38,708 nucleotides of DNA. Origin: a virus. Shown here piece after piece: positions 15,869-38,200 of the stretch (positions are counted from its first letter, which is position 1; every line of letters starts with the position of its first letter). The notes under the pieces were generated by a model. That model did not search any database and had not been told where the DNA came from. It saw only the letters and a list, made by a program, of their open reading frames with translations. The stretch is taken from positions 1 through 38,708 of IMG/VR virus record IMGVR_UViG_3300006128_000024; one strand, written 5' to 3'. The position numbers and the translations under genes are program-made.

Positions 15869-16501
15869 ATGACAAATAAAGATTTAATAAAGCAGTATGT
15901 TAATAATGGAATTAGCATTCCAGAATATCAATTCAATAAATTAAATAGACAAGATAAGAAATCTTATCTTAGAGCTAGAATATTACAATTTAATCAAGGT
16001 GGAGTAATTTTACAAGATTATGAATTTAATTTATTAGATGAAAAAGAAAAAGAATTTTATGTAATAAAAAAATACAAAAATGAACGTCTTACATTTTCTG
16101 CGGAAGAAGAAAAATATCTTCCGATGGAAATGCTACAACAATACATTTATAAAAGAATTTTTTATAAAATGAGAATAACTGATTTTGATTATTCTTTAGT
16201 TGAACATACACATTTACAATTGAAATCTTTAGAAAATCTTGTAAATAATAGGGAAAGAATTTCTGTAAATAGATTAGAAAATTCAAATCTTGAGACTTTG
16301 GAATTATTTGTTAATAATTATAGAAATTATAATTTTGATAAAGAACAATTTTTAGCCTTACCTAATGAAATAAAAACAATCATATTAGATAGAAAAATAA
16401 AAAGTAATAATTTATCAATTAAAAGTTTTGAATATGATTTTTTAACTCCAGAACAAAAAGAAATTTATAATAATTTCTTGAATGATAATTTTAAGGGCTA
16501 A
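15869..16501 (+). CDS. tandem paralogue 1 (helical-repeat protein), 210 aa
   Basis: Member of the array whose proteins all begin MTN-K-(D/E)-LIKQY. The first about 45 residues (QFNKLNRQDKKSYLRARIL) are conserved between members; the rest diverges but keeps a unit of roughly 25 residues with the pattern (E/Q)F-x-x-L-(P/S/T)-x-(E/D)-x-K-x-x-(Y/I)-(L/I), for example QFLALPNEIKTIIL and EYDFLTPEQKEIYNNF. This predicts a helix-turn-helix solenoid in which the conserved N-terminus is itself repeat one. No enzyme motifs, membrane segments or cysteine clusters. The location in the late module suggests a virion-associated or late-expressed binding protein; its target is unknown. Confidence 0.7.
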   Translation: MTNKDLIKQYVNNGISIPEYQFNKLNRQDKKSYLRARILQFNQGGVILQDYEFNLLDEKEKEFYVIKKYKNERLTFSAEEEKYLPMEMLQQYIYKRIFYKMRITDFDYSLVEHTHLQLKSLENLVNNRERISVNRLENSNLETLELFVNNYRNYNFDKEQFLALPNEIKTIILDRKIKSNNLSIKSFEYDFLTPEQKEIYNNFLNDNFKG

Positions 16502-16532
16502 AGGAATTCTAAATAATATTTAATAAATACTA

Positions 16533-16625
16533 TTATTTCTAATTTTAAACGATTAAATTTCAATTATAATATAATTTATAAATAAAGTATTTAAAAAATA
16601 AAAATAACGTTTAAAACGTTTTAAA
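16533..16625 (+). repeat. duplicated leader, copy A (upstream of paralogue 2)
   Basis: About 90 bases nearly identical to 17253-17337 (shared stretches include TTATTTCTAATTTTAA and GATTAAATTTCAATTATAAT). It ends in a near-palindrome AACGTTTAAAACGTT (7-bp arms) just before the ATG. It probably carries the regulatory signals of paralogues 2 and 3 and marks a recent tandem duplication. Confidence 0.8.
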
Positions 16626-17249
16626 ATGACAAATAAGGATTTAATAAAACAATATGTCAATACAGGTAGGAGAATTTCAAAGAATCAATTTGATAAACTT
16701 TCTACACAAGATAAAAAATCTTATCTAAGAGTAATTTTAAGAAGTTTTGAAACTGATGAAATTCCTTTAGCTGATTATGAATTTGATTATTTAAGTAAAG
16801 AAGAAAAAGAAAAATATGTAGAAAAAAAATTTAGATTAGACTATACAGTTTTTACTGATAATGAATTAAATTATTTACCAATACAACTTATTTATCAATA
16901 TATTTTTAAAAGAATAAGTTATGGGTACCCTACAACTGATTTTGAATATTCTTTTGTAAAAGATGCAATTATACAACTTGAAATTTTGAATAGTTTAAAA
17001 AATAATAGTTGTATAATTTCTCCGTTTAAAATAAAAAATTCAAATTATGAAACTTTAGAAAAATTTATTTTAAGTATCAATAAAGCTAAAAGTAGGTATA
17101 TTTTCCATGAACAACAATTTTTAGCTTTACCTGATGAATTAAAAAAGGTTTATTTGGAAGGTAGAGTGGAAAATAATAGAGATATTAAAGAATATGAATT
17201 TGAATTTTTAACCCCTGAATTAAAAAAAGTTTATCTAAATTATCATTAA
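16626..17249 (+). CDS. tandem paralogue 2 (helical-repeat protein), 207 aa
   Basis: Begins MTNKDLIKQYVNTGRR, then QFDKLSTQDKKSYLR. It is closest to paralogue 1 along its whole length (both carry L-x-x-Y-I-(Y/F)-KRI, TDF-(D/E)-YS, QFLALP and FLTPE), so the two arose by duplication. Repeat units are visible as YEFDYLSKEEKEKYVEKKF, NELNYLPIQLIYQYIFKRI, QQFLALPDELKKVYLEGRV and YEFEFLTPELKKVYLNYH. No function is recognised. It has its own leader, a copy of which precedes the next gene. Confidence 0.7.
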   Translation: MTNKDLIKQYVNTGRRISKNQFDKLSTQDKKSYLRVILRSFETDEIPLADYEFDYLSKEEKEKYVEKKFRLDYTVFTDNELNYLPIQLIYQYIFKRISYGYPTTDFEYSFVKDAIIQLEILNSLKNNSCIISPFKIKNSNYETLEKFILSINKAKSRYIFHEQQFLALPDELKKVYLEGRVENNRDIKEYEFEFLTPELKKVYLNYH

Positions 17250-17252
17250 AGT

Positions 17253-17337
17253 GTTATTTCTAATTTTAACCGATTAAATTTCAATTATAATACATTTTAC
17301 AAATAAAGTATTTAAAAATAAAAAAATAACTTTTAAA
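17253..17337 (+). repeat. duplicated leader, copy B (upstream of paralogue 3)
   Basis: The second copy of the 16533-16625 leader, with a handful of substitutions and small indels, ending directly at the ATG of paralogue 3. Confidence 0.8.
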
Positions 17338-18135
17338 ATGACGAATAAAGATTTGATAAAACAATATGTTAATACCGGAAGAGAAATTAAACCTAAACAA
17401 TTTGATTTGTTATCTAATTCCGACAAAAAAACTTATTTAAGAGCAAGATATATAAATTTTGAATCAAAAGCTAGAGAAAATGAATATTTTGAATTTGAAG
17501 ATTTTGAATTCATACATTTACCAGATGATAAAAAAAATAAATATATTAAATATGTTTTGGATAACCCTGAACATTGTTTTTTAAATTCAAGATTACAATT
17601 TGAATCTTGTTCAAAAGAAGAACAAATAGAATATGTTACTTATAAAATTTCATATTTTCATAAACCAAGAAATTATGAAATGGCGGTTTTACCTGATGAA
17701 ATAAAAAGGGATTATTTTAATAATCAAATGAAAAACTGGAATTTTTCATTTTTTGAAGATGATTTATTTGTTTTAATGCCTGAAGATATAATGGAAAAAT
17801 ATATTCATTTACAAATTTCAGAAGGTAATTTATTATCAAATTTACAATTTAAATGTTTGAATGAAGAATTACAAAATAAATATTTAGAAAATGTAAAAGG
17901 GCCTATTTCTAAATATCAAATGGATTTAATGTCTGAAAAAGAATTTGATGATTATATTAAAAGAAATTATAGAAACGCATTTACCTTTGGAGAAATTGAA
18001 ATTGATTATTGGAATAAATGTAATGAAGAACAAAAGAAATTCTTAGTTCAAAAATTAGCTTTAGTTATAGGTAAAAATCGTTTAAAAAGTAAAGAATTAA
18101 ATATTTTTAATAAATATCAAATGAATGACGAATAA
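17338..18135 (+). CDS. tandem paralogue 3 (helical-repeat protein), 265 aa
   Basis: The longest and clearest repeat protein of the array, with about nine units including N-terminal QFDLLSNSDKKTYLRARYI, then FEFIHLPDDKKNKYIKYVL, LQFESCSKEEQIEYVTYKI, YEMAVLPDEIKRDYFNNQM, DLFVLMPEDIMEKYIHLQI, LQFKCLNEELQNKYLENV and YQMDLMSEKEFDDYIKRNY. The spacing of aromatic/Leu and Tyr positions fits two short helices per unit. The gene's end overlaps the start of the next paralogue by 11 bases. Function unknown; the family looks like a binding scaffold with variable surface. Confidence 0.75.
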   Translation: MTNKDLIKQYVNTGREIKPKQFDLLSNSDKKTYLRARYINFESKARENEYFEFEDFEFIHLPDDKKNKYIKYVLDNPEHCFLNSRLQFESCSKEEQIEYVTYKISYFHKPRNYEMAVLPDEIKRDYFNNQMKNWNFSFFEDDLFVLMPEDIMEKYIHLQISEGNLLSNLQFKCLNEELQNKYLENVKGPISKYQMDLMSEKEFDDYIKRNYRNAFTFGEIEIDYWNKCNEEQKKFLVQKLALVIGKNRLKSKELNIFNKYQMNDE

Positions 18136-18901
18136 GGAATTAATAAAACAATATTGTAACACAGGTTTAAAAATCTCGGAATATCAGTTTGAAAAATTAT
18201 CTAATCAAGACAAAAAAACTTATCTTAGAGCAAGGGTAATTGGCGTTAGTACAGATGAAAAATATCATAAATTAGATTTATGGGAATTAGATTTGTTACC
18301 TGAGATAAAAGAAAAATTTAAAATTCAACAATTAAAAAGATTTTACGATGTTATAAATTTTAGGGATTATTTTTATAATATGCTACCTAATGGATATACT
18401 GTTTTTAATACTGATGAAAATTTAGATTTTTCTATGTTTAGATTTATTCCTGATAAAATAATATTTAAAAAAAAATGTGATGTATTATTTAATAAATTAA
18501 TTGAATTACCTAAAAATATAGAATTTTATAATGAGGATATACAATTTGGAGAAACAATTATACCGGATGATTTTGTTTTTAATAATAAAGGTATTATAAA
18601 TTTCGATAATGCAAGTAATCTTGGGAAAAATGTGATTTTTAATAATAAAACTGTTTGGTTAAGCGGTTTAAAAACTTTACCTGAAGGAATACAATTTAAT
18701 AATACAGGTAATGTCGGTTTATATGATTTAGAAATTTTACCTGAGAATTTCGTGTTTGATAAAAATATATTGAATGTTATATTATACAATATTAAAGAAA
18801 TTCCAGAAAGTGTAATATTTAATAATCAAAAATGGGTAAAAATTAAAACAACAACTAAATATCCTGAAAATTTAGAGGATAAAATATATTTTATGCAATG
18901 A
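18125..18901 (+). CDS. tandem paralogue 4 with LRR-like C-terminal repeats, 258 aa
   Basis: It shares the N-terminal module (MTNKELIKQYCNTG ... QFEKLSNQDKKTYLRARVI), but after residue about 110 switches to a different, roughly 21-22-residue repeat of the form (L/I)P-(E/D)-x-x-x-F-x-N-x-x-x-(V/I)-x-L-x-x-(L/I): for example IPDDFVFNNKGIINF, VIFNNKTVWLSGLKTLPE, GIQFNNTGNVGLYDLEILPE and NFVFDKNILNVILYNIKEIPE. This is a beta-solenoid or leucine-rich-repeat-like arrangement, so the array mixes a constant head with different tails. The ATG overlaps the previous gene, and the stop overlaps the next ATG (ATGA). Confidence 0.75.
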   Translation: MTNKELIKQYCNTGLKISEYQFEKLSNQDKKTYLRARVIGVSTDEKYHKLDLWELDLLPEIKEKFKIQQLKRFYDVINFRDYFYNMLPNGYTVFNTDENLDFSMFRFIPDKIIFKKKCDVLFNKLIELPKNIEFYNEDIQFGETIIPDDFVFNNKGIINFDNASNLGKNVIFNNKTVWLSGLKTLPEGIQFNNTGNVGLYDLEILPENFVFDKNILNVILYNIKEIPESVIFNNQKWVKIKTTTKYPENLEDKIYFMQ

Positions 18902-19515
18902 CAAACAAAGACTTAATAAAACAGTATTGTAATACAGGAATTAAAATTCCTTATAGCCAATTTGATAAATTATCGACATCTTTACAAAAAACTTATTTAA
19001 GAATGAGGTTTATTGCTTGTAAAGATGATTTAGAAGAATTGGTACCTTATGAATTTAATTTATTACCTCAAGAAAAAATATTAGAAATTTTAAAATTATG
19101 TGCTGATAATAGAATTGATTTAAATTGGTTTATTTTTCAAAATTTAACTTCTGAAAATAGAAAAATTTATTTAGACTTTTGTTTGGAGTCTAGAGGAGCT
19201 TCTAATATGAGCTATTATATTAAATTTATGACTTTAGAACAACAAAAAAAATATATTGATGAATTTATTAGTAATGATATTTTACCTGGAAGTTCATTTT
19301 TTGAAAATTTGGATAAAGATAATTTAAGATATTATTATCAGAAAAAAATGATAATGAATATTGATCAAGATTCTATTTTTGATTTTGATGAAATAAATAA
19401 TCTTAGAAGGTTCCCTGATTTATTAGAAATTTATTTAAAAAGAATTTTGAAGTCAAGGCCTAATGATTTAATTGGGATAGAAAAAGTTTGTGCAAAACAA
19501 TTAAATTTAATTTAA
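18898..19515 (+). CDS. tandem paralogue 5 (helical-repeat protein), 205 aa
   Basis: Begins MTNKDLIKQYCNTG, then QFDKLSTSLQKTYLRMRFI. The tail returns to the helical ~25-residue unit (YEFNLLPQEKILEILKLC, FQNLTSENRKIYLDFCLE, IKFMTLEQQKKYIDEFI, FFENLDKDNLRYYYQKKM). It is translationally coupled to paralogue 4 through an ATGA overlap and is followed 10 bases later by the three-domain protein. No function is recognised. Confidence 0.7.
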   Translation: MTNKDLIKQYCNTGIKIPYSQFDKLSTSLQKTYLRMRFIACKDDLEELVPYEFNLLPQEKILEILKLCADNRIDLNWFIFQNLTSENRKIYLDFCLESRGASNMSYYIKFMTLEQQKKYIDEFISNDILPGSSFFENLDKDNLRYYYQKKMIMNIDQDSIFDFDEINNLRRFPDLLEIYLKRILKSRPNDLIGIEKVCAKQLNLI

Positions 19516-19525
19516 AAATAAAAAA

Positions 19526-20932
19526 ATGTTAGATAAAGATTTTAATTCTTGGAAAAGAAAAAATGTGACATTAAGAGGGATAAAAGATAAATACGCTAGT
19601 GATAATGGTGGAATGGCAAAATATGGTCAAGGCCTTTATACAGCATTTTTAGGCAATAGGAATATGACTAAAGAATATGGTAAAGTTTACTTTGTCGTGA
19701 ATGCAATACCTAAACACCCAAAAATTGTTAATGATGTAAATGCAGCTGAAATGTTTTTACAAAATATAATAAATAATTGGTGTAAAAAACATAATATGAA
19801 ATATAATTCAGATTATTTTTATTCAAAAACAAATATCAAAGATGAAATGTTAAACCTTGGATATGATGGATTAGTTATTAAAGGAAGAGAGATGGTAAAT
19901 TATACTCCTCCTGATAATGTAAAATATTTTGAAAATATAACGCAACTTGAAAGATATTATGATAATTATGTAAAAAATAGTTTGGTTGAAAAAATATTGA
20001 AAGAAGCTAATGAAGTTAATGAAGAAGAATTCCCTAAAACTATTAAGGACGCATTAAAAATGTCTTGTGAAGTATATCCAGAAAATATTGATATTGATGT
20101 AGTAGAAAGAATAAATTGGATTATAAACCATAAATCTTGTGATAATGTAATTACTTCAAAAAGTAGAGATGGAATTAAAAGAGCTTGTTATTATAATAGC
20201 TTAAAATTTGCAAGAAAAAATAATTGCGATTTAGCTTTCGGTTATATAGTTAGAAAAGAAAATTTTAAAGATTATAAAGAATTATGTTATTATTACTCAA
20301 AAGTTTGGAAAAAACCAAATCATTTTCCAACTATGTATGGAGTTTATCATGCTTTTTGTTTTCATAATAACACTATTTATGAAACTACTCCAATAGATGG
20401 AATAGGAGACTTTATTTATTTTTATGAAATTATACCTAAAGAAATATGGAAAAATTTTAATTTTAAAGAAAATGATGAAGAATTTGACGCAACAGATTTT
20501 CACAGATATTGTATGAAATTAAAAAATGAAAAAAGCTATTTAAAAGAAAAGAAAATCCCTACACTTTCAATTTTCCCTTCTGCTTTATTTAATCGTTATG
20601 GATTTATTCAAAGGGATGTAACAAAATTTATTTCCATGAAAGATAAAGAAAACATTATTAATAAATTAGAGAAATTAAGAAAAACATCTGGAGAAGGTTT
20701 ACCTATTAAAAAAGTAAATCCAAGAATGTTAATTGCTACACAACAATCTATTGAATCAGATAATTTACAAGGTGTAAAACAATCTAATAAAAAACCTTTT
20801 GTAGTACAATTGAATAGGTGTCTCCTGCTCATTGATGGTCATCATAGGACTGCGAACGCAATTTTAGATGGATTACAATCAATAGATGTAAATTTTCTTA
20901 ACCTTGATAATTATGAAATCAAAACAATTTGA
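19526..20932 (+). CDS. three-domain late protein: ART-like, papain-like and ParB-like
   Basis: 468 residues. Residues 1-147 resemble phage ADP-ribosyltransferase-type domains (KYGQGLYTAFLGN at 32-44, GKVYFVVNA, then GYDGLVIKGREMVNYTPP at 112-129, ending NVKYFE). Residues 152-161 carry LVEKILKEA, a motif found near the N-terminus of two other late proteins. Residues 200-345 show C221 in ACYYNSLK and H275 in YGVYHAFCFHNNTIYETTP, a Cys ... His ... (D/E)-x-T layout of papain-fold proteins. Residues 395-462 look like a ParB/Srx-type domain with LLIDGHHRTANAILDGLQSI (436-454). The last gene pair of the late module is this protein and PhoH. A packaged multi-activity effector injected with the DNA is a plausible role; none of the activities is demonstrated. 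Confidence 0.6.
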   Translation: MLDKDFNSWKRKNVTLRGIKDKYASDNGGMAKYGQGLYTAFLGNRNMTKEYGKVYFVVNAIPKHPKIVNDVNAAEMFLQNIINNWCKKHNMKYNSDYFYSKTNIKDEMLNLGYDGLVIKGREMVNYTPPDNVKYFENITQLERYYDNYVKNSLVEKILKEANEVNEEEFPKTIKDALKMSCEVYPENIDIDVVERINWIINHKSCDNVITSKSRDGIKRACYYNSLKFARKNNCDLAFGYIVRKENFKDYKELCYYYSKVWKKPNHFPTMYGVYHAFCFHNNTIYETTPIDGIGDFIYFYEIIPKEIWKNFNFKENDEEFDATDFHRYCMKLKNEKSYLKEKKIPTLSIFPSALFNRYGFIQRDVTKFISMKDKENIINKLEKLRKTSGEGLPIKKVNPRMLIATQQSIESDNLQGVKQSNKKPFVVQLNRCLLLIDGHHRTANAILDGLQSIDVNFLNLDNYEIKTI

Positions 20933-22490: not shown

Positions 22491-23036
22491 TTAAAGCCCT
22501 AAATATTTTACAAATTTATTAAATAAAGGTATATGAAAAGAAATAATATTTTCATTTGGGTTAGAATATATTTCAATATAATCAACCCATTTAACTTCTT
22601 CAATATCATCACCGCCTAAGGCTTGCATTGCTTCCTCTTCTGTAAGAGTGATAGTAAAAATACTGGTTGTAACTTTATGACAACTTTGTTTATATCTTCT
22701 ATCATCAACAAATTGTGAACTAATATATTGAAACCTATTAAGATCATCTATATAGATATTAGTTTCTTCATGTAACTCTCTTGCTGCAGCTTCTTCAGTA
22801 GAATTTGTAGGTTCTACAAAACCACCTATAAATCTCCATTCATTACTGTTATGTTTTCTTCCTAAAAGAATTTTCATTCCAAAATCTTTATAAACAATTG
22901 GAATAATATCAACAGTATGAAAAGCAGTTGGAAATGGAACATAAGGTACTTTTTTTAATTGTTCTAATATCCTTTTTTTTAATTTTCTTCCAGGTGCTAC
23001 ACCAATAATCTTTGCAATTTCTTCTAAAGTTGTCAT
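22491..23036 (-). CDS. Nudix hydrolase
   Basis: 181 residues. The Nudix box runs from G72 to about I94 (GFVEPTNSTEEAAARELHEE), matching G-x5-E-x7-REUxEExGU except that the first Glu is Asn (N78); the catalytic REL-x-EE is intact. Preceding FIGG and the strand-rich N-terminal part fit the fold. Family knowledge: Nudix enzymes cleave nucleoside diphosphates linked to another group (ADP-ribose, NAD derivatives, oxidised dNTPs, RNA caps). The nearby PARP-like gene makes an ADP-ribose-related substrate an attractive guess. It starts immediately at the stop of the upstream gene (23037), so the two are coupled. Confidence 0.88.
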   Translation of the reverse strand: MTTLEEIAKIIGVAPGRKLKKRILEQLKKVPYVPFPTAFHTVDIIPIVYKDFGMKILLGRKHNSNEWRFIGGFVEPTNSTEEAAARELHEETNIYIDDLNRFQYISSQFVDDRRYKQSCHKVTTSIFTITLTEEEAMQALGGDDIEEVKWVDYIEIYSNPNENIISFHIPLFNKFVKYLGL

Positions 23037-23627
23037 TTATATATTTTTTATGTTTGTAATTATTTTAAGGCCTTCATTATAATCTTTATATTTTTGATAA
23101 ATTGAATAATTCACAATTCTTTGATTTAAAGGAATTGTATTGTTCATAAAATCATAAAATAATTCTGGAGTATTAAAATAAATTCCTCCATTCATTTTAT
23201 AATTTGAAACAAAAATATCTAATGGTATTTCAGTTTCTTTTTTTATACAAATAAACGAAATATTTTCAAAATATTCAGTAGTAGGAATAATTTCTTTAAG
23301 AGTCATTTGCTTTGCTACTGACTTTAAAGAAACTGATTTTACATCTTTAGCAATACATTTTGTAAAAAATACAGGATTATAAAGTTCAGAAATTGAAAGT
23401 GAATAGAATTTTAAAATATTTTTAGGTGTTTTGCAAAAATGAAATCCATTAGAACAAATTTTTATTTTATTTTTTATAATATAAGTTTCATTAATTTCCC
23501 AATGAAAATTTCCCCAATTAGAAAAATATAAAATTTTATTTTCCCTTCGATTAAATCTAGTGCATACTGCTTTATAACCATGGATTTCTTGTTTTAAAAT
23601 CCTTTCTTTGATAAAATCAAATATCAT
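23037..23627 (-). CDS. GFHFCK-motif protein A (DUF7666-like), 196 aa
   Basis: Start chosen at the ATG at 23627; a GTG three codons earlier also exists. After a 16-residue leader it shows the order HGYKAV, then ICSNGFHFCKTPKNILKFY (about 80-98), the hallmark of a small domain common in phage proteins (GYKxF ... C-x-x-GFHxC-x-x-P-x-x-(I/V)-x-x-Y), which I tentatively match to DUF7666. The C-terminal half is unassigned. It overlaps the upstream 47-aa frame by 11 bases and abuts the Nudix gene. A paralogue lies at 23993-24591. Biochemical function unknown. Confidence 0.65.
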   Translation of the reverse strand: MIFDFIKERILKQEIHGYKAVCTRFNRRENKILYFSNWGNFHWEINETYIIKNKIKICSNGFHFCKTPKNILKFYSLSISELYNPVFFTKCIAKDVKSVSLKSVAKQMTLKEIIPTTEYFENISFICIKKETEIPLDIFVSNYKMNGGIYFNTPELFYDFMNNTIPLNQRIVNYSIYQKYKDYNEGLKIITNIKNI

Positions 23628-23760
23628 TTTTAACACTTTTAACTAAATAAACACTATTATAAGTAAAACCTGGAACATAATAAATATCAACAGTAAATTT
23701 TGTTTTATACCATGTTACATTGAATTTAAAAATACTTTCCTTAAAAGTTAAAATAAACAT
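23617..23760 (-). CDS. small protein, 47 aa
   Basis: A short open frame with balanced composition (FNVTWYKTKFTVDIYYVPGF in the middle), overlapping the next gene by 11 bases (ATGATATTTGA). The strand-like pattern resembles the C-terminal segment of the frameshifted GFHFCK protein (YEVNLYSYRTKGW), so it may be a detached fragment of such a gene rather than an independent protein. Confidence 0.4.
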   Translation of the reverse strand: MFILTFKESIFKFNVTWYKTKFTVDIYYVPGFTYNSVYLVKSVKNDI

Positions 23761-23992: not shown

Positions 23993-24591
23993 TTAAGTGA
24001 TTTTATTTACAATTTTAATAAAATATAAGGTTATTCTTTTAGTCCAACCTTTTGTACGATAGCTATATAAATTTACTTCATATTTCCCAGAAGTTAAAAA
24101 ATCAGGGCATAAAATATTATGAGTAAAATATAAACCGTAATTTTGTGGTTTAAAATGTGGGACGCCATTTTCATTAAGTAAAAAAAATTTTTCAGTAAAC
24201 AAATCGAATTTCCAAAATTATAATGAATAAATATTTTTTTGTTTTTATAAATTCTCTTTGCATTGATAATTTCCAAGACTTCTTCATTACTTAAAATATC
24301 ATCAACATAAAGAGAATTTGTAGAAATATTATCATGTTGATTGTGAAAATGAACATCACCTTTAGAAATAACTCTTGTAAACCTCCGATTTAATCCAATT
24401 CCATAATAAAGAAATACTTTCTTTAAATTTTTGCAAAAATGGAATCCTCTTTCACAAATTTTTGGAGTACAATTTTCTGTTTTAATTTCTCCAGGCATAA
24501 ATATTGTTCGTTGACCACACATTGGATTTGTGAAAAGTACATTATCAATAAAATTAAATCCTTTAAACCCCGCGATTTCTTTTTGTTTCAT
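23993..24591 (-). pseudogene. GFHFCK-motif protein B, frameshifted
   Basis: The first frame (ATG at 24591) reads IAGFKGFN ... ICERGFHFCKNLKKVFLYY, the same domain as in protein A, and continues well to about KIFIHYNFGN. Past about 24205 that frame turns into an unnatural hydrophobic run ending at 24094, while an adjacent frame opens at about 24215 and continues FTEKFFLLNENGVPHFKPQN ... WTKRITLYF to 23993 with normal protein character. The simplest explanation is a single indel near 24205-24220 in an otherwise complete gene of about 195 codons. A sequencing error, programmed frameshift or true inactivation cannot be told apart here. Confidence 0.65.
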
Positions 24592-24594
24592 AAA

Positions 24595-25845
24595 TTAGTT
24601 TTTAAATTCAATTAAATAAGAAATAGTACATTGTTCTGAACGATAAATAATATATTCGTTTCTATAAAGACTAGGCCCTTTTGCGCCCCAGGTTGAATCA
24701 CAACCTTTAGCTTTAATTTTATTATAATTTAAACTGCTATCTGAATTAAAAATTTTATGTTGTTCACCTAAATGTACATTAAATAATGCCATATAAACAA
24801 AAGGTGGACGCCCACCATTTACCCATCTACCTGAATCAGTATAGCCCATTGATTTATCGCTTTCAGAGGCAAAATATATGCCATCGCCGAACATCGACCC
24901 CGTATAAGCAGCCCCTGCGGGTCTAATTAATAAACTACTTTGTAAGATCGAGATCCAATTAGCCGCACGTGAACCGTGCCATAGCAAATCAGTTTTTTTA
25001 TTTTTTGCTTCACTTAAAGATTTATCAAATTTAGCTTGTGCTTTTTTGTTTATAACTTTAAAAACTCTATGTACTTTATGTGAATGTTCTTGTGCTAATT
25101 TTTTTACTTCCGCAATTACTTTTGGGTCAGTGACAATAGACATTTCTAAACCTAATGTTTCAACTAAAGTAACTTCGTTTTTAATTTCTTCTTCAGTTTC
25201 ATTTTCTGTTGCATTGTTTGTAACAACTTGTGACCTCATTGAATCCAATAAGTCTTGTTCCTTTTGTAACATTTCATCAATGGCATTCTTTTTTGCTACA
25301 ACACTTATCATATGGTCTGCTACCTTAACCATTTTTCTTGGAATGATAATAAATAACTTTACTAATTCCTTATTGAAAAAATCCAAATTCCAACTAGCAG
25401 TTCCAAATTTCTTTGTTAAATCAAATAATACGTCAATTTGTTTTTGAGCATCATCAATTTGTGCTTGTGTTACATTTTTTGCTTCAACTTCATAATTGGC
25501 CTTAGTTAAATTATTTGAAACATTCTGTAAATATTGGATTAATTTAACTACTTCTGGTTCTTTTGAAATTAATTGACCTTGTGAATTTCTTTTTACACTT
25601 TCAGTTTTTACAACTGCTTTATAAGCAGTTACATCTGTATATCCTTTTTTGCTTGAAGTCTTTTCTGAATATTTCTTTTCCCACATTGACATTGGATAAG
25701 TTTCAGACTGTGGCTTAGCAGCTCCTTCCCTTCCGTAAGTAACAGTAAATGTTCCATTACTATTAGCTTTCATCTCATAAAATTTATTCGCATTTACTCC
25801 AGGTTCCGTTTTCCTTAAAAATATGTAATTCTGATTGGGTGTCAT
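24595..25845 (-). CDS. poly(ADP-ribose) polymerase-like enzyme (WGR + helical + ART domains)
   Basis: 416 residues with the architecture of eukaryotic DNA-dependent PARPs. Residues 1-75 are a WGR-type domain (NKFYEMKANSNGTFTVTYGREG, ending SKKGYTDVT). Residues 95-215 are a mostly helical segment in the place of the PARP regulatory domain. Residues 255-416 are the catalytic ART domain with the H-Y-E triad: H290 in LLWHGSRAANWISIL, Y324 in MFGDGIYFASESDKSMGY and E397 in LYRNEYIIYRSEQ. The Glu is the residue needed for chain elongation, so real polymerase activity is possible. The substrate is NAD+. PARP homologues are known from some large phages. Expressed from its own bipartite promoter. Possible roles are reprogramming host proteins or nucleic acids, or DNA-break sensing. 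Confidence 0.9.
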   Translation of the reverse strand: MTPNQNYIFLRKTEPGVNANKFYEMKANSNGTFTVTYGREGAAKPQSETYPMSMWEKKYSEKTSSKKGYTDVTAYKAVVKTESVKRNSQGQLISKEPEVVKLIQYLQNVSNNLTKANYEVEAKNVTQAQIDDAQKQIDVLFDLTKKFGTASWNLDFFNKELVKLFIIIPRKMVKVADHMISVVAKKNAIDEMLQKEQDLLDSMRSQVVTNNATENETEEEIKNEVTLVETLGLEMSIVTDPKVIAEVKKLAQEHSHKVHRVFKVINKKAQAKFDKSLSEAKNKKTDLLWHGSRAANWISILQSSLLIRPAGAAYTGSMFGDGIYFASESDKSMGYTDSGRWVNGGRPPFVYMALFNVHLGEQHKIFNSDSSLNYNKIKAKGCDSTWGAKGPSLYRNEYIIYRSEQCTISYLIEFKN

Positions 25846-25868: not shown

Positions 25869-25892
25869 CAAAATTAATGAAAATTTTATCTA
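25869..25892 (-). promoter_or_regulatory. bipartite phage promoter (TAGATAAA-N8-TAATTTTG) of the PARP-like gene
   Basis: Perfect boxes with 8-base spacing, 23 bases upstream of the ATG at 25845. Same downstream context (GTAGAGTAAACAAA) as the promoter at 6612. Confidence 0.75.
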
Positions 25893-25924: not shown

Positions 25925-26692
25925 TTAAAAATTATCACCATATTCTCTTCTATAACCTTTAGCCCAACCATGTGTTATAATAGCACCATTTGGACCATAA
26001 GGATATGTATTTTGCCAATTATCATTTGATGAACAATCATCATTTGAAGAATGATTATTTGATGAACAATCATCATTTGAAGAATGATTATTTGATGAAC
26101 AATCATCATTTGATTGGCGGCTATAATTTTTAGAATTTAAATTTTCAGTTATTCTTTTTTCAATTTCTAATTCTTTTTTTCTTACTTCTTTAAAAATTTT
26201 TTCTTGTTCTTCTTTTTCTTTAATTTTTTGAAAATGTTTTTCTGTCATTTCTTTTTCAAAAGAAATAAGTTTAGCAGAATTTTCTAAAGGGAACCCACTT
26301 TTTGTATATGAAACACCATTACAATAATAAGGCCAATTGGTATTTTGGAACCTTGTTCTTTCAGTATATCCAATAGCATCACCTGTTTTTCCCATTGGGC
26401 CGATTATTTGACCACTAACATTTTTATAAAATCCACCAATAATTAATGAAACACCTGGAGGGTTTAAATATCCATTTAATATTTCATCTATTTTTTCAAC
26501 TCCATCAATTTTAATTGATTTAATTAAAACAATTCCTTCTTTGGAAATATTTTCATCAATCCAACATTTTTCAGAGTTTAAAAATCTTTCATATGAAAAA
26601 CATGGTTTAACAGCATTTGGGTAATGTACACTTTTAGAATATAAAAGTGTTTTTGTTTTACCATTTTTAAATTTAATTTGTACTTTAGGCAT
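25925..26692 (-). CDS. hypothetical protein with coiled coil and SNDDCSSNNHS repeats, 255 aa
   Basis: Three regions: a globular N-terminal half (residues 1-155, with GGFYKNVSGQIIGPMGKTGDAIGYT), a charged helical stretch (about 150-190, EKEEQEKIFKEVRKKELEIEKR) that should form a coiled coil, and a low-complexity tail of two and a half copies of an 11-residue Ser/Asn/Asp/Cys unit encoded by 33-base DNA repeats. It ends in YPYGPNGAIITHGWAKGYRR. No family recognised. It has its own bipartite promoter. Confidence 0.6.
   Translation of the reverse strand: MPKVQIKFKNGKTKTLLYSKSVHYPNAVKPCFSYERFLNSEKCWIDENISKEGIVLIKSIKIDGVEKIDEILNGYLNPPGVSLIIGGFYKNVSGQIIGPMGKTGDAIGYTERTRFQNTNWPYYCNGVSYTKSGFPLENSAKLISFEKEMTEKHFQKIKEKEEQEKIFKEVRKKELEIEKRITENLNSKNYSRQSNDDCSSNNHSSNDDCSSNNHSSNDDCSSNDNWQNTYPYGPNGAIITHGWAKGYRREYGDNF
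26028..26113 (-). repeat. 33-base tandem repeat inside the 255-aa gene (2.6 copies)
   Basis: Two identical 33-base units (26028-26060 and 26061-26093) and a partial third. Each encodes SSNDDCSSNNH in frame, so copy number can vary without breaking the gene. It looks like a recent slippage product. Confidence 0.9.
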
Positions 26693-26714: not shown

Positions 26715-26738
26715 CAAAGGTAATAAGAATTTTATCTA
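26715..26738 (-). promoter_or_regulatory. bipartite phage promoter (TAGATAAA-N8-TACCTTTG)
   Basis: Perfect boxes and spacing, 22 bases upstream of the 255-aa gene; the TAGATAAA box overlaps the stop codon of the upstream gene. Confidence 0.7.
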
Positions 26739-27531: not shown

Positions 27532-30462
27532 TTAAAGTCTTGAATCTAAAATTTTCTCATTTTTTTGTTCATTCATTAATTGATAAGCTAAATAAACCCA
27601 TTCTTTATTCTCAATGGAAATTTGATTATTAGGTATTTCTAACATTTTTTTACCAATTTCCCATTCCTTAATAGAAGTATTAAGTTTATTTTTTATTGAT
27701 TTATTTACAATTAATTCTTTATAACGTTTATCTACATCGTAATTAAAACCATAAACTAATCTTAAATATTCTGGATTTCTTACTTTCATAAAAGGAGCAA
27801 CTCTATCTACATAAGTGAATTCAGGTTTAATTACAATACCTTCCATTTTACAACTTTGAGTGATAAATGCCCAAAAATTTTTAATTCCTAATTCTAAAGG
27901 TAATACATTATTATCTTTATCATCTAATTCTTTTGATATGAAAAACTCAAGTGTATCATTCTCAAAATCAATTATCGCATAAGCATTATTAGAAACTTCT
28001 TTATAAATATCAATATTAGAATGTTTATCAGAAACAAATATTTCTTCTGTTCCGTCTTCCTTAATTGTTTTAAGAATAGAAAATGCTTCATACTTTAATT
28101 CAGACAAACCAACAAATATTTCCAATTGTGTTTTAAATTTTTCATTCTTTTCTTTTTCAATTTCAATAGAAGTATAGTTATTTAAAAAATCAGGTAAACA
28201 TTTCTTTTCAATATCTGTAGCATTACCTATTAGAGTTGAAATTTTACTCTCAATATCTAAATCAATAAGTACATCTAGCTCATTATTAATAGTGTTAAAA
28301 ACATCCCTAAATTCGTGTTCTATTAGGGATTCACCTATTGCACTCCAAGGTAATAATTCACCATCAAATAAAATATATTCGCAGCTATATAATTCAAATA
28401 AATGTTGATGTTTAATGATTAATTCAGTATATAATTCTTCTAATGTTTTTTCGCAACGTAACCAACCTTGTTTTAATAAATATCCATTTCTACTGAAGCC
28501 TTTGCATTTAGTTACATCACTTTTATGAAGCATCATATTTAGACGGCTTCCCATAAATTTAGGTTGAAGAATAACTTTTTTTACTCCCATACTTTTGAAG
28601 TAAGCTAAACCAGATTCCATACTTTCTAATTCAAATTCACTTTTATTTGCCGGACTCATTGTCCCAGAAATAAAATTTAATTTATCATTAGCAGCATATT
28701 TTAAACGAATTTTATCTTCCCTTTCTAAAGTATCAATATTAATTTCTTTTTTAGTTGGAAAGAAAGGTAAAATTTCTTTTTCTCTTTTTTGTTTTGAATT
28801 AACTTTAATAAAAGAAATCCTATTATTTGAAAATTCCAACATAGTTAAAGTTCCACCAGAAACACAACCAGTATCAATTCCAATTTTATTTTTAAATTGA
28901 AATACAATTGGAGTTTCTAAATGTCCAAAAATATGTTTTTTATGAATTGTTGACGCATCTGTTTTAAGAAAGGACAATTCATTAGTTCTATTTTCAATGT
29001 ACTTTTCTTTTGTATCAAATTCAGCAGCTTTAATAGTTCTCAAATTTCTTTGTGAACGTAAAGAAACTCTATCTGTTTTTAACAAATATTTATTTTCACA
29101 AGGTGCATGAGTAATAATACAATCTTCAGTTTCAACTGCATGGAAAGATGTATTAAATAAATATTTAAATTTCCTTAATAATTCTGGGTCATTTCTTAAA
29201 ATATCAACAGTATTAAACCAAGTGTCAATTAACATTTGGTCAGTTTCAGCAGGTAAAAGATTTTTAATATCATTGATGTTTTTTTCAATGCAAGTTAAAA
29301 ATTTAAAAAACGTTTTAACATTTTTTTCTTCTCTCTTTTCTTTTTTTATATTCTTAATTACAATAATATCTTGATAAAATTCTTTTGTTCTGTCAATAAA
29401 ATTTAAAATATTTTCCCTATCAGTGTTTAAATTATAATAAAGTGTATTAATTAATCTAAAAACTTTATGAGAAAAATTATGAAATAATTCTAAATTTTCT
29501 TCAGGAATAAAATCAATAATAGAACTATTTAAATTTAAAATATCTTCTAAATTATTAATAAATTCATTTAAGATAAGTATAAAATTACTAAAATCTTTCA
29601 TTTTATTAGTAACATAATCATGAACCCAATATTCGTGGTTACCAATTACAATTGTAAAGAAGTTAGAATTATTATACAAAAATTCAATTGTTTCCTTAAT
29701 TTGTGGGCCTTTATCAATATAATCTCCTACAAGAATAAAAGGAATATAATCATCAACTTTAGGAGTAATTAATCCATCAACTAAAGAAATAGTTTTGTTT
29801 TTTTGTACAATTTCTAATAATTCATCTAAACATCCATGAATATCTCCGATTACAAAATAATTCTTAGAATTAAATTTACAAATTTCATTATCATTACTTT
29901 CAAAAGCAAATTTAATAACTTCATCATGAGAAGTTATTTTGAAGATTTTGTGAAAATCATCAGTTGTAATAGTTTTTAAAACTTCTTTATTAAATTGGTT
30001 TACATGATTAGCAATAACACTTTTTAACGTACCTTCATCAACATAACGAAAATAATCTTCAAAATTCTTATAAGCAAATACAATTGTATCAAGGGTATAA
30101 TTATTCTTTTTTGCGATGTTAATATAAATTTTTCTACCAAATTCGTCTAGATTAGTAGCATCAACAATAATTACATCAGCATTAACAGGAAATTGAGATA
30201 ATACATCAATTTTCTTTTCCAATAATTGAAATGCTTGAATACTTACATAATCCATTTGTTTATCATGTTTATGTAAATCCATTTGCATCAATTCCCTTCT
30301 TGTATCATCACTTGATAAATAATGACAATTTAAATTTAAATCATTTAAAAATGGCATTAATTTATTTTTACAAAAATAAGTTTTACCTGAATTGGATGGA
30401 CCAATCAGCAAAATTATTGAATGTCTTGTGATAATAATTTCCTTTTTCTTTACTTTACTCAT
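27532..30462 (-). CDS. pnkp: Pnkp: RNA 5'-kinase / phosphatase / ligase
   Basis: 976 residues with the three modules of bacterial Pnkp in order. Kinase (1-190): P-loop GPSNSGKT (21-28), SSDDTRRELM (50-59) and VIIVDATNLD (97-106). Binuclear metallophosphatase (200-550): GDIHG (206-210), GDYIDKG (246-252), GNHE (274-277), a late HA (452-453) and GH (513-514). Ligase (575-976): nucleotidyl motif with K635 in QPKFMGSRLN, GFSRNGY, LFDGELLPW (698-706), then EGIVIKPEF and a FMKVRNPEY block near the end. It heals broken RNA ends (5'-OH phosphorylation, removal of 2',3'-cyclic phosphate) and seals them. About 160 helical residues (280-440) are inserted between GNHE and the rest of the phosphatase, making it longer than the roughly 870-residue Clostridium enzyme. 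Own bipartite promoter upstream; Hen1 partner encoded nearby. Confidence 0.93.
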   Translation of the reverse strand: MSKVKKKEIIITRHSIILLIGPSNSGKTYFCKNKLMPFLNDLNLNCHYLSSDDTRRELMQMDLHKHDKQMDYVSIQAFQLLEKKIDVLSQFPVNADVIIVDATNLDEFGRKIYINIAKKNNYTLDTIVFAYKNFEDYFRYVDEGTLKSVIANHVNQFNKEVLKTITTDDFHKIFKITSHDEVIKFAFESNDNEICKFNSKNYFVIGDIHGCLDELLEIVQKNKTISLVDGLITPKVDDYIPFILVGDYIDKGPQIKETIEFLYNNSNFFTIVIGNHEYWVHDYVTNKMKDFSNFILILNEFINNLEDILNLNSSIIDFIPEENLELFHNFSHKVFRLINTLYYNLNTDRENILNFIDRTKEFYQDIIVIKNIKKEKREEKNVKTFFKFLTCIEKNINDIKNLLPAETDQMLIDTWFNTVDILRNDPELLRKFKYLFNTSFHAVETEDCIITHAPCENKYLLKTDRVSLRSQRNLRTIKAAEFDTKEKYIENRTNELSFLKTDASTIHKKHIFGHLETPIVFQFKNKIGIDTGCVSGGTLTMLEFSNNRISFIKVNSKQKREKEILPFFPTKKEINIDTLEREDKIRLKYAANDKLNFISGTMSPANKSEFELESMESGLAYFKSMGVKKVILQPKFMGSRLNMMLHKSDVTKCKGFSRNGYLLKQGWLRCEKTLEELYTELIIKHQHLFELYSCEYILFDGELLPWSAIGESLIEHEFRDVFNTINNELDVLIDLDIESKISTLIGNATDIEKKCLPDFLNNYTSIEIEKEKNEKFKTQLEIFVGLSELKYEAFSILKTIKEDGTEEIFVSDKHSNIDIYKEVSNNAYAIIDFENDTLEFFISKELDDKDNNVLPLELGIKNFWAFITQSCKMEGIVIKPEFTYVDRVAPFMKVRNPEYLRLVYGFNYDVDKRYKELIVNKSIKNKLNTSIKEWEIGKKMLEIPNNQISIENKEWVYLAYQLMNEQKNEKILDSRL

Positions 30463-30477
30463 CTATTTTATTTTGTA

Positions 30478-30501
30478 CAAATTTACAATAAATTTTATCT
30501 A
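30478..30501 (-). promoter_or_regulatory. bipartite phage promoter (TAGATAAA-N8-TAAATTTG) of pnkp
   Basis: Perfect boxes with 8-base spacing, 15 bases upstream of the pnkp ATG, giving pnkp its own start independent of the hen1/thg1 transcript. Confidence 0.72.
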
Positions 30502-31059: not shown

Positions 31060-31872
31060 TTAAAATAATTCTATTTCTTCGTTATTAAAAAAGAATCCTA
31101 CTTTGTTTTTAATACTTGAAAGTTTAGGGATATCAATTACTTGAATAATATTTCTTTCAATTACTAAGTCAGGATTATTTTTCGCTTGATGTTTTTCAGG
31201 TAAAGCATCCAATTCTTCTTGTGTAAATTTCCTAGAAGTTTTAATTCTTTTTACATAAGTTCCTTTTTTAAAGAAATCAGGATAATTATTCCAATTTACT
31301 CCTTTTTCAGTAAACATTTTCTCTTGCATTTCATTACCATGTAAACCTTGCAAAACAGAATGAGGGAACATAGATTGTGCTGCCATTGAAATAGAATTTT
31401 TTGTAGCATCTATTTCCCTCCATAATAATTGTTTTACAGCCCATTCTAAAGTAGGTGTTTGATAAACTCTACAATCAAAATCAGCATATTTTTTATATCC
31501 TAAACCATATTTTTCTTTTTCTTGATTAAAAAAGTTTATTAATTTAGAAGTTAGTTTAGAACAAATTTTTTGTTTTTTACCATCTTGATAAATCAAAGAT
31601 TTTAAATCATTTGAATAAAGTATAACCGATAATTCATCTGATTGTTGATATGAAACAATACCATTTGTTTCTTTAATTAAAAATTTTGCACATTCTATCA
31701 TTAGACTAGATAGTCTTTCATCATAAGGGCTTTTTAAATCTTTTGTCCACGAATGGAAATTATTTCCGTCGAGCCTAATGATAACAGGAAGTTCTGGTAT
31801 CATAATATCTGGGGAGAAGTTTTTTTCAAACCATTTACAAATGTCCCCTAAAGTTGTTTCTTCTTTAAACAT
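31060..31872 (-). CDS. thg1: Thg1-like 3'-5' RNA polymerase (tRNA-His guanylyltransferase family)
   Basis: 270 residues with the Thg1 palm motifs: IIRLDGNNFHSWTKDL (31-46; catalytic D35), SYQQSDELSVIL (74-85; second metal ligand D79/E80) and DATKNSISMAAQSMF (155-169), followed by LHGNEMQEKM. Thg1 family enzymes add nucleotides to the 5' end of tRNA in the reverse direction. Bacterial and phage members (Thg1-like proteins) usually repair 5'-truncated tRNAs by template-directed addition rather than adding G-1, so that is the likelier role here. The gene lies 6 bases after hen1 in the same transcript. Confidence 0.93.
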   Translation of the reverse strand: MFKEETTLGDICKWFEKNFSPDIMIPELPVIIRLDGNNFHSWTKDLKSPYDERLSSLMIECAKFLIKETNGIVSYQQSDELSVILYSNDLKSLIYQDGKKQKICSKLTSKLINFFNQEKEKYGLGYKKYADFDCRVYQTPTLEWAVKQLLWREIDATKNSISMAAQSMFPHSVLQGLHGNEMQEKMFTEKGVNWNNYPDFFKKGTYVKRIKTSRKFTQEELDALPEKHQAKNNPDLVIERNIIQVIDIPKLSSIKNKVGFFFNNEEIELF

Positions 31873-31878
31873 AATTTT

Positions 31879-33147
31879 TTATTTTTTGTGAATTAATCCT
31901 GTAGAAACTGCTTGACTGTTTACTTTATCCCCTACACCGCAATAATTATAAGTACCGTTTCCTAATTTGTTTCCAATAAAATTAGTAAAGTCACCCCCAC
32001 TCATTTCCCATTTATGGTCAGGATGCCTAAAATTAGTTTCCATTACATAATTTTTATTAAAATCATAATTTGGAACGGTAATAATTAATTTTTTATAAGG
32101 AAGATTTTTTAATTGATTTAAGATAATATCCACTTCATCTAAAGTATTATGTTCTAATACTTCTGTACAAATAATGTTGAATTTAGTGTTTTTATCAACT
32201 CCAACAATTAAATCTAATTTATATTGTTGTAAAAACTCTTCAAAAGATTCAAAAATAGTTACATTTTCTAATCCTTCATCTTTGATGTAACGATTTATTT
32301 TAAATAAAGCATCTAGGTCTTTTTCAATTCCAATATACCTTCTATCTTTTAAAAATCTTAAATATCTATAATCACTACCAACACCAAAATCAATTACAGT
32401 AGTTAAATCAAAATTAGTTTCTTCTTTAATAAAAGAAATTCTAGCGTCATGTGTATCTCCATAGACTAATTTAAAATCATTTGTAGTTGATTCTTCCAAA
32501 GCAGATACAAAGTTTTTAAACTTCTTTTCACTTGTTAGGAATTTTAATTTGATAATATACCTTATAAAATATGGTGCATCTATTTCTTTTGCAATTTTAA
32601 CATATTTATCAATCAAACCTTCTTCAATAAAAATAAAGTCATCAGAATTTATTGCTGCAATTATTCCAAACAAAGTTATAAATTTTAAGAATTCAAACAT
32701 TGTTTTATTTTGTGTATTGGAAATAATTACATTAAATAATTTATTACCTTTTTTCTCAAAAACAAAATTGTAATCCGGAAAATATTTTTGAAATATCAAC
32801 ATTGTTCTTTCATCAGTAGAAAGTAAATTCATTTCAAAAGTATGTAAAGAAGGAATGTCTCTTTCTTCTACTTTTTGAATAGTACTTTTAAAAAGGTCTT
32901 TGATTACAACGCAAATAATTCTTGCGTTTGTATAAGAAGAAATCCCATTACTTGCTACATCATTTGGATGTGCTTTATAAGAATTTTTATCAATATGGTC
33001 TCTAAAATAAACACAATATCCATTAGGTATAAAAAATCCTACGAAATGTCCATGATTATTTTTTTTGAGAATTACATTCTTTTCTGGATTTTTGTTTATT
33101 ACCCAAGATAAATGAGGATTGTCACTTTTTAATTTTATAATTGCCAT
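31879..33147 (-). CDS. hen1: Hen1: 3'-terminal RNA ribose 2'-O-methyltransferase
   Basis: 422 residues. The C-terminal methyltransferase (about 225-422) has SAM motif I VIDFGVGSDYRYLRFL (251-266), acidic IGIEKD (272-277), the metal-binding CTEVLEH (327-333), ITVPNYDFN (356-364) and RHPDHKWEMSGGDF (374-387). EVxEH plus the RHxDHxxE block is diagnostic for Hen1. The N-terminal 225 residues correspond in size and position to the domain of bacterial Hen1 that activates the Pnkp ligase. Hen1 methylates the 2'-OH at a broken RNA 3' end before Pnkp seals it, so the repaired site cannot be recut by the same ribotoxin. Both pnkp and hen1 being present supports a working complex. Somewhat shorter than typical bacterial Hen1 (about 465). 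Confidence 0.9.
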   Translation of the reverse strand: MAIIKLKSDNPHLSWVINKNPEKNVILKKNNHGHFVGFFIPNGYCVYFRDHIDKNSYKAHPNDVASNGISSYTNARIICVVIKDLFKSTIQKVEERDIPSLHTFEMNLLSTDERTMLIFQKYFPDYNFVFEKKGNKLFNVIISNTQNKTMFEFLKFITLFGIIAAINSDDFIFIEEGLIDKYVKIAKEIDAPYFIRYIIKLKFLTSEKKFKNFVSALEESTTNDFKLVYGDTHDARISFIKEETNFDLTTVIDFGVGSDYRYLRFLKDRRYIGIEKDLDALFKINRYIKDEGLENVTIFESFEEFLQQYKLDLIVGVDKNTKFNIICTEVLEHNTLDEVDIILNQLKNLPYKKLIITVPNYDFNKNYVMETNFRHPDHKWEMSGGDFTNFIGNKLGNGTYNYCGVGDKVNSQAVSTGLIHKK

Positions 33148-37201: not shown

Positions 37202-38200
37202 TTAAATTTGATTATAAATTTCTTTAAAGAAATATTCCCTTCCTTTATTGCTAATAGGCCCAGAAATTTTCTTTACATCAATATTGTTTTTAAGTATAGT
37301 TTCTTGATGTTCTTTTAAAACATCATTAAAAAGCCAACGTAAATAATCAGCAGTAGAAGACTTATCAACTGGTTTGTTATTTTCTTTTAACCAAGAAATT
37401 CCTTGTTCTAATCTCCATTCAGGTACAGCTAATTCAACAAATTCATTTATAGTTTCCAAAACAGCAGTATCAACTAAATTTATAGCTTTAGTTTTTCCAG
37501 CACCCTGATGCTTTAAACCTTTTGATTTAAATTTGTATTTAAAATCTTCAGATTCCCAAACTATACCTTCACCGATTAATCCTTTTTCTGGAACTGCACC
37601 TAAAGCAATTGCAAATGGACTTGCTTCTTCAACAGTTAATGTCATATCGACAATATCATTTTGTTGCATTTTAGGGTTATTGAAATCGATATTAATTTCC
37701 CATTTTTTAAAATTACGAATATCATAAATTCCTTGTTCTGCGTCGTTTTCATAAACTTTATCAATCCATTGCCCATCTACTTTTACTCTAAAGATAACAA
37801 AGATATTTGGTAATTGATTTAACCCTACACCTTTTTTGATAGAACCACCACACCATTCACCATAAACAGCTATGTATTCTTTAAATTCAATTCCATCAAA
37901 TAAGAAATCTGTATTTTTAATAGAATTTAAAGCAAAGAATCTAGCATTATCAGCAGTTAAAGATAAAATTCTTTCCCTAGATTGATATACTTTTGTTCCA
38001 TCAGCCCAAAGCGTTAAATTCGAATTTGTGCCATGGAGTTTTTCTGTACCTACAAATTTAATAGTAGGATAAGGAGAATCATGTAAATAAATTACATCCC
38101 CATTTTCGTCTTTCCCTTTATAATCGTGATTAACACGAACTTGTCTAATTACTTCATCAAATTGTCCTATTGAAGGATAAGCTATGTGTTTTATTTCCAT
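37202..38200 (-). CDS. rnl2: Rnl2-type RNA ligase
   Basis: 332 residues, essentially the length of T4 RNA ligase 2 (334). Nucleotidyltransferase motifs in order: motif I with adenylated lysine K54 in EKLHGTNSNL; QSRERIL; motif III-like AVYGEWCGG (111-119); motif IV EGIVW (211-215); motif V KFKSKG (223-228). The C-terminal 100 residues match the helical domain of Rnl2 enzymes. The family seals nicks in duplex RNA or RNA:DNA hybrids. Together with Pnkp/Hen1 and Thg1 it gives this phage two RNA ligases. No bipartite promoter is seen in the leader (38201-38363), which holds no gene. Confidence 0.92.
   Translation of the reverse strand: MEIKHIAYPSIGQFDEVIRQVRVNHDYKGKDENGDVIYLHDSPYPTIKFVGTEKLHGTNSNLTLWADGTKVYQSRERILSLTADNARFFALNSIKNTDFLFDGIEFKEYIAVYGEWCGGSIKKGVGLNQLPNIFVIFRVKVDGQWIDKVYENDAEQGIYDIRNFKKWEINIDFNNPKMQQNDIVDMTLTVEEASPFAIALGAVPEKGLIGEGIVWESEDFKYKFKSKGLKHQGAGKTKAINLVDTAVLETINEFVELAVPEWRLEQGISWLKENNKPVDKSSTADYLRWLFNDVLKEHQETILKNNIDVKKISGPISNKGREYFFKEIYNQI

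Follow-up and report, generated by a model that had tools for sequence, protein, structure and literature searches.

A phage PARP with WGR, helical and catalytic domains, possibly a sensor of broken nucleic-acid ends

The sequence of the protein encoded at positions 24595-25845 of the window (the whole 38,708-nucleotide stretch of DNA analyzed here, a 38.7-kb virus record that is itself a fragment) supports its assignment as a phage-encoded PARP of the clade-1 type, with all catalytic and NAD+-site residues present. We propose, tentatively, that it is an active ADP-ribosyltransferase of the PARP1/2/3 type, one that senses ends and would act on itself, on nearby proteins or on the ends, early or midway through infection. 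We favor this reading over, in descending order, modification of host proteins, partnership in RNA repair, depletion of NAD+ and survival as a relic. The gene and the parts of its product are as follows:

24595-25845, minus strand: PARP gene (416 aa, start ATG, stop TAA; 36 non-redundant viral homologues)
25633-25827, minus strand: WGR domain (aa 7-71; motif Y37-G38-R39; Pfam WGR, 22.8 bits)
25180-25557, minus strand: helical (regulatory, HD-like) domain, predicted (~aa 97-222; AlphaFold2 helices, alignment with PARP1/PARP2 HD+ART)
24598-25149, minus strand: ART catalytic domain (~aa 233-416; Pfam PARP, PDB sequence matches to PARP1/2/3, fold)
24976-24978, minus strand: codon CAC for H290, first triad residue
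24874-24876, minus strand: codon for Y324, second triad residue
24655-24657, minus strand: codon for E397, third triad residue, the catalytic Glu

The open reading frame is intact on the minus strand and ends exactly at these coordinates; a plus-strand reading of the same interval was rejected, for it has stop codons throughout. The protein matches Pfam PARP (PF00644) at 98 bits (E 7e-28; curated cut-off 26.7) and Pfam WGR (PF05406) at 22.8 bits (E 1e-4), barely above the cut-off of 22. A sequence search of the PDB returns PARP1, 2 and 3 (best E 1e-14). The motif that names the WGR domain reads Y37-G38-R39, Tyr replacing Trp. Between WGR and ART, Pfam PARP_reg has no match at E<=0.1, and it is the predicted fold that supports the presence of a helical domain; in many bacterial PARPs, too, this domain lacks a sequence-profile match (PMC5966428). 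The preliminary description had placed WGR, helical and ART regions in the order of eukaryotic DNA-damage PARPs, and this holds: the order is that of PARP1, 2 and 3, the type with which animal cells signal broken DNA, with Pfam vouching for the first and last and the predicted fold for the second. It had also found the triad complete, and the three residues can indeed be read in their expected motifs (H290 in LLWHGSR, Y324 in GIYFAS and E397 in RNEYIIY). The protein thus has what defines a clade 1 PARP (ARTD): a PARP domain above cut-off, H-Y-E, an N-terminal WGR domain and, by prediction, a helical domain.

The AlphaFold2 model, built with 29 sequences, has a mean pLDDT of 79.5 and a pTM of 0.71. 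Helices are predicted at aa 97-117, 127-144, 154-167 and 186-214, coinciding with the position of the PARP1/2 helical domain, and residues 91-416 align with helical-plus-catalytic fragments of PARP1/2 at Z ~26. The top structural match is human PARP1 bound to a double-strand break (4dqy), with Z 26.6 and an rmsd of 3.6 over 372 residues, in an alignment that spans the whole model (1-416 versus PARP1 548-1007). The top Foldseek match is PARP2 on a bridged break (6x0l; E 2.4e-20). A collapsed active site had been named beforehand as an outcome that would tell against the enzyme. The predicted fold is PARP-like, with pLDDT of 94, 84 and 83 around the H290, Y324 and E397 blocks, but pLDDT falls below 50 in the active-site loop (309-316) and in an insertion (338-345), so the model answers this point in part.

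A single IMG/VR scan, its sequences partly selected with the pattern MFGDGIYF, supplied 36 non-redundant full-length viral relatives; 28 of these were placed in one alignment (A1), where they share 27-41% identity with the window protein. H-Y-E is invariant in all 36 and in five of five annotated-phage relatives, and the triad is kept in 41/41 viral relatives and in almost every one of the 50 bacterial ones. Because of this invariance in the 36, and of the E-values, we exclude a chance origin of the PARP match. The NAD+-site residues K331, S332 and Y335 do not vary among the viral relatives or among the bacterial ones, and N20, K21, G38, R39, K62 and Y69 of the WGR region are invariant throughout alignment A1. 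The WGR motif begins with Tyr in most relatives (39 of 41 viral, 47 of 50 bacterial), in keeping with the literature on bacterial PARPs, where Tyr is usual and most have Y-G-R (PMC5966428). A virus-specific active-site signature, S-x-x-x-D, was seen but is not upheld, the MFGDGIYF search being biased and the signature absent from Klebsiella phage 05F01.

Saprospiraceae, Cytophagales and Clostridia carry relatives on their chromosomes. In the tree, whose long branches caution against fine reading, the copies from Bacteroidota group in a clade with support 100 and most phage copies in another (support 92), while the branch of the window protein is long, solitary and unplaced. We rejected the idea that the gene was captured recently from a host: the best bacterial homologue is 43% identical, and viruses and bacteria fall largely into separate clades. 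The bacterial genes have neighbors of their own. A second WGR-domain protein is encoded just downstream of the PARP in Saprospiraceae and Cytophagales (28/54 loci; e.g. L050:3526-4470), and a macro-domain gene lies nearby in Clostridia and a Microscilla (8/54 loci; e.g. L051:10527-10976). These pairings look like separate two-gene systems.

The gene was said to have its own phage promoter, and this is borne out to the extent that a promoter-like site precedes its ATG and recurs, in exact form, before two other genes:

25869-25892, minus strand: promoter-like site TAGATAAAATT-N5-TAnnTTTG, 23 nt upstream of the PARP ATG
26715-26738, minus strand: the same, before gene 25925-26692
30478-30501, minus strand: the same, before the Pnkp gene 27532-30462

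These three are the only exact copies in the window; all are on the minus strand, 15-23 nt before ATGs, and chance expectation for a looser form of the motif, as searched, is 0.07. Weaker copies with one or two mismatches precede other minus-strand non-structural genes (5285, 6612, 13094, 35875 and 36346), and none was found before the plus-strand structural genes of the window. The pattern suggests a phage-directed promoter class that serves non-structural genes. The TAnnTTTG part is the Bacteroidota -7 element; the upstream element is unlike the usual -33 TTG. These TAnnTTTG-type sites and the nearest cellular PARPs point to a bacterium of the Bacteroidota as the probable host. The tail-sheath gene resembles, in its C-terminal part, those of Flavobacterium and other myoviruses.

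The gene directly after PARP is probably co-transcribed with it:

24094-24591, minus strand: DUF7666 gene, beginning 3 nt past the PARP stop codon

It is one of two DUF7666 genes directly downstream (with 23037-23636, minus strand). DUF7666 was not found in the PARP flanks of the relatives; a functional tie is thus conjectural, and the idea of a conserved partner was rejected; among the other genes of the window, Rnl2 alone recurs in those flanks. After the DUF7666 genes comes a NUDIX hydrolase (22491-23036, minus strand) whose best NCBIfam matches, all weak, include NAD+ diphosphatase and NMN adenylyltransferase/Nudix proteins; a role in ADP-ribose clean-up is conceivable. On the other side of PARP, gene 25925-26692 (minus strand) encodes a short tandem repeat, SSNNHSSNDDC, and has no family match. 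Elsewhere in the window, a TnpB-related, RuvC-like protein lies near the fragment edge (162-1325, plus strand; TIGR01766, 34.4 bits, cut-off 32), and five tandem paralogues (15869-19515, plus strand) begin MTNK(D/E)LIKQY(V/C)N(N/T)G and diverge in their C-terminal parts. In the protein after these (19526-20932, plus strand), visual inspection picks out an ART-like stretch on the N-terminal side (YGQGLYTAF...GYDGLVIKG) and a ParB-like one on the C-terminal side (DGHHRTANAI). The protein matches nothing in Pfam, PHROG or NCBIfam, and is possibly a second phage ADP-ribosyltransferase. Rfam has no structured-RNA match in the window.

How might the enzyme work? In the mechanism that we favor, the WGR domain would bind the end of a broken nucleic acid; the helical domain, which would otherwise block the NAD+ site, would be displaced; and the ART domain would then move ADP-ribose from NAD+ onto the enzyme itself, onto neighboring proteins or onto the phosphorylated end. 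Driven by the phage promoter class of the minus-strand non-structural genes, the protein would most likely serve to mark or shield phage DNA that has breaks (intermediates of replication and recombination, or the products of host nucleases) in the early or middle phase of infection. Our literature search found no activity data and no demonstrated role for any phage PARP, and we infer activity, DNA dependence, target, timing and role from the protein's features and its better-known relatives. Both of the best structural matches, PARP1 (4dqy) and PARP2 (6x0l), are break-bound. The protein has all three WGR stretches (N..Y, YGR.G and K..KGY) that have been linked, in bacterial PARPs, with DNA-dependent activity (PMC5966428). 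We lean toward break sensing because PARP2 and PARP3 require 5'-phosphorylated ends (PMC10789625), because PARP1-3 can ADP-ribosylate DNA ends themselves (PMC8053099), and because two bacterial enzymes, CdPARP and HaPARP, depend on DNA and PARylate themselves (PMC5966428). Against it stand the marginal WGR score and a helical domain that Pfam does not recognize. WGR domains occur also in bacterial transcription factors (PMC7824862), so that DNA binding need not mean break sensing. Erasers of PAR or ADP-ribose, moreover, are unlinked to the phage PARP gene: of 16 phage records that bear PARP, only six encode a macro domain, and they do so apart from PARP. Nor do the domains and triad prove that chains are formed, as the preliminary description had supposed, because human PARP3 has three domains alike yet only mono-ADP-ribosylates (PMC10789625).

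Modification of host proteins is the next reading, possible though on balance unlikely. The enzyme would ADP-ribosylate RNA polymerase, ribosomal or defense proteins, in the manner of T4 Alt, ModA and ModB, and WGR would do no more than position it on DNA or RNA. Such a take-over has been proposed for phage PARPs (PMC7824862) and for viral ARTs generally (PMC9503650), and a promoter class shared with other non-structural genes would suit it. However, the ART clade of the window protein is H-Y-E, versus R-S-E for Alt and Mod; its gene lies away from the head and packaging genes that are the usual context of injected ARTs; and the conserved end-binding residues of WGR would be without obvious use.

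Upstream of PARP, on the same strand and within ~12 kb, are four genes that bring RNA into consideration:

27532-30462, minus strand: Pnkp kinase-phosphatase-ligase (TIGR04075, 189 bits, below the curated cut-off)
31060-31872, minus strand: Thg1
31879-33147, minus strand: Hen1_N methyltransferase (Hen1-like)
37202-38200, minus strand: Rnl2-type RNA ligase

With these partners, PARP could be activated by, or modify, broken tRNA or rRNA ends, countering host defenses that cut tRNA. Pnkp carries the exact promoter motif of PARP. Rnl2 lies within the fetched flanks of PARP in 26 of 41 viral loci, often accompanied by T4-type DNA ligase, RlaP and RnlA, but most of the Rnl2-linked loci belong to one syntenic lineage. 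In Cellulophaga phage phi4:1, a tRNA nucleotidyltransferase gene ends ~1-2 nt before the PARP start, and a DNA ligase follows PARP. PARP10, 11 and 15 can modify RNA 5'-phosphates, but human PARP3, a clade-1 enzyme, does not modify RNA (PMC8053099). Several such genes are usual in large phages, and when distances from PARP to the RNA_ligase, RlaP, RnlA and PNKP_ligase families were compared across 12 whole records (eight roughly independent lineages), Fisher p for nearest neighbors was only 0.06-0.09. Clustering in several lineages is therefore suggestive; linkage to RNA repair as a strong claim was dropped to a rival on this p-value, and we consider it improbable. A broader form, to which we give slightly less credence again, is that the phage PARPs of this group evolved in viruses into a branch of their own, dedicated to sensing broken ends of RNA or DNA as part of a phage set for nucleic-acid repair (in the window Pnkp-Hen1-Thg1-Rnl2; elsewhere Rnl2-RlaP-RnlA or a CCA-adding enzyme). 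If this were true, ADP-ribosylation would be a step of phage RNA repair.

PARP1-type enzymes use up NAD+ once activated, and runaway activity might starve NAD+-dependent defenses, or kill or stall a superinfected cell. The macro-domain genes near some bacterial PARPs are reminiscent of toxin-antitoxin pairs. The phage gene, though, has no macro, NADAR or ARG hydrolase gene beside it, of the kind that marks PARP-macro or DarTG-like pairs, its immediate neighbors being DUF7666 and the unmatched protein; PADLOC finds no match for it; and a lytic phage that needs NAD+ would gain little, all of which makes this reading very unlikely. Least credible of all is a catalytically dead, decaying relic retained as a DNA-binding protein, which the long tree branch and the low pLDDT of the active-site loop would fit; against it, the frame is open, and neither the triad nor the residues of the NAD+ site vary among 36 relatives.

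Phage PARPs have been published and annotated before, and the novelty implied at the outset is accordingly lower. The PARP of phage Aeh1 was reported in 2005 (PMC1266365), and that of phi4:1 in 2014, with triads conserved in most viral PARPs (PMC4245714); jumbo-phage PARPs such as that of XacN1 followed in 2021, with chain transfer suggested (PMC7824862). PHROG 23333 matches residues 6-415 of the window protein, nearly its whole length. The PARPs of phi4:1 (gp031, which also matches Pfam WGR and PARP), XacN1 (ORF414; BBA65562.1) and Klebsiella phage 05F01 (BBK09217.1) share its H-Y-E and Y-G-R; it is ~28-36% identical to them over the matched part, and its gene context differs. XacN1 has two Thg1, Pnkp and Hen1 (PMC5852040), a precedent for the gene set of the window, although in that phage PARP and Pnkp are far apart. 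The same WGR-helical-ART order, usually with Y-G-R, is found in bacterial clade-1 PARPs (Herpetosiphon HaPARP, C. difficile CD160 CdPARP and those of Cytophagales and Saprospiraceae). The chromosomal Bacteroidota enzymes mostly share 35-43% identity with the window protein, and most of them have K-MFGY in place of its S-MFGD; the viral set was picked in part by MFGDGIYF. Human PARP1/2/3 share its domain order, triad and fold (Z ~26) at ~21% identity; it lacks their zinc fingers, BRCT and basic N-terminal tail, has Y for W in the WGR motif, and, in the active-site loop, Ser for Tyr889 and Asp for Lys893 of PARP1. The protein falls outside both the T4 Alt/ModA/ModB type (the R-S-E clade) and KptA/TRPT1 (the H-H-h clade): it is H-Y-E with no Pfam or PHROGs match to the former, and it matches the PARP profile, with no KptA match at E<=0.1. 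Judging by the 36 non-redundant full-length viral sequences that a single IMG/VR scan supplied, large phages commonly carry and conserve the WGR-helical-PARP combination, which makes a role in infection likely; isolated phage-host pairs, such as that of Cellulophaga phage phi4:1, would allow it to be tested. If active, so compact a three-domain enzyme would be a handy model for break-sensing ADP-ribosylation outside eukaryotes. The window PARP is a well-formed, fairly distant relative of the published phage PARPs.
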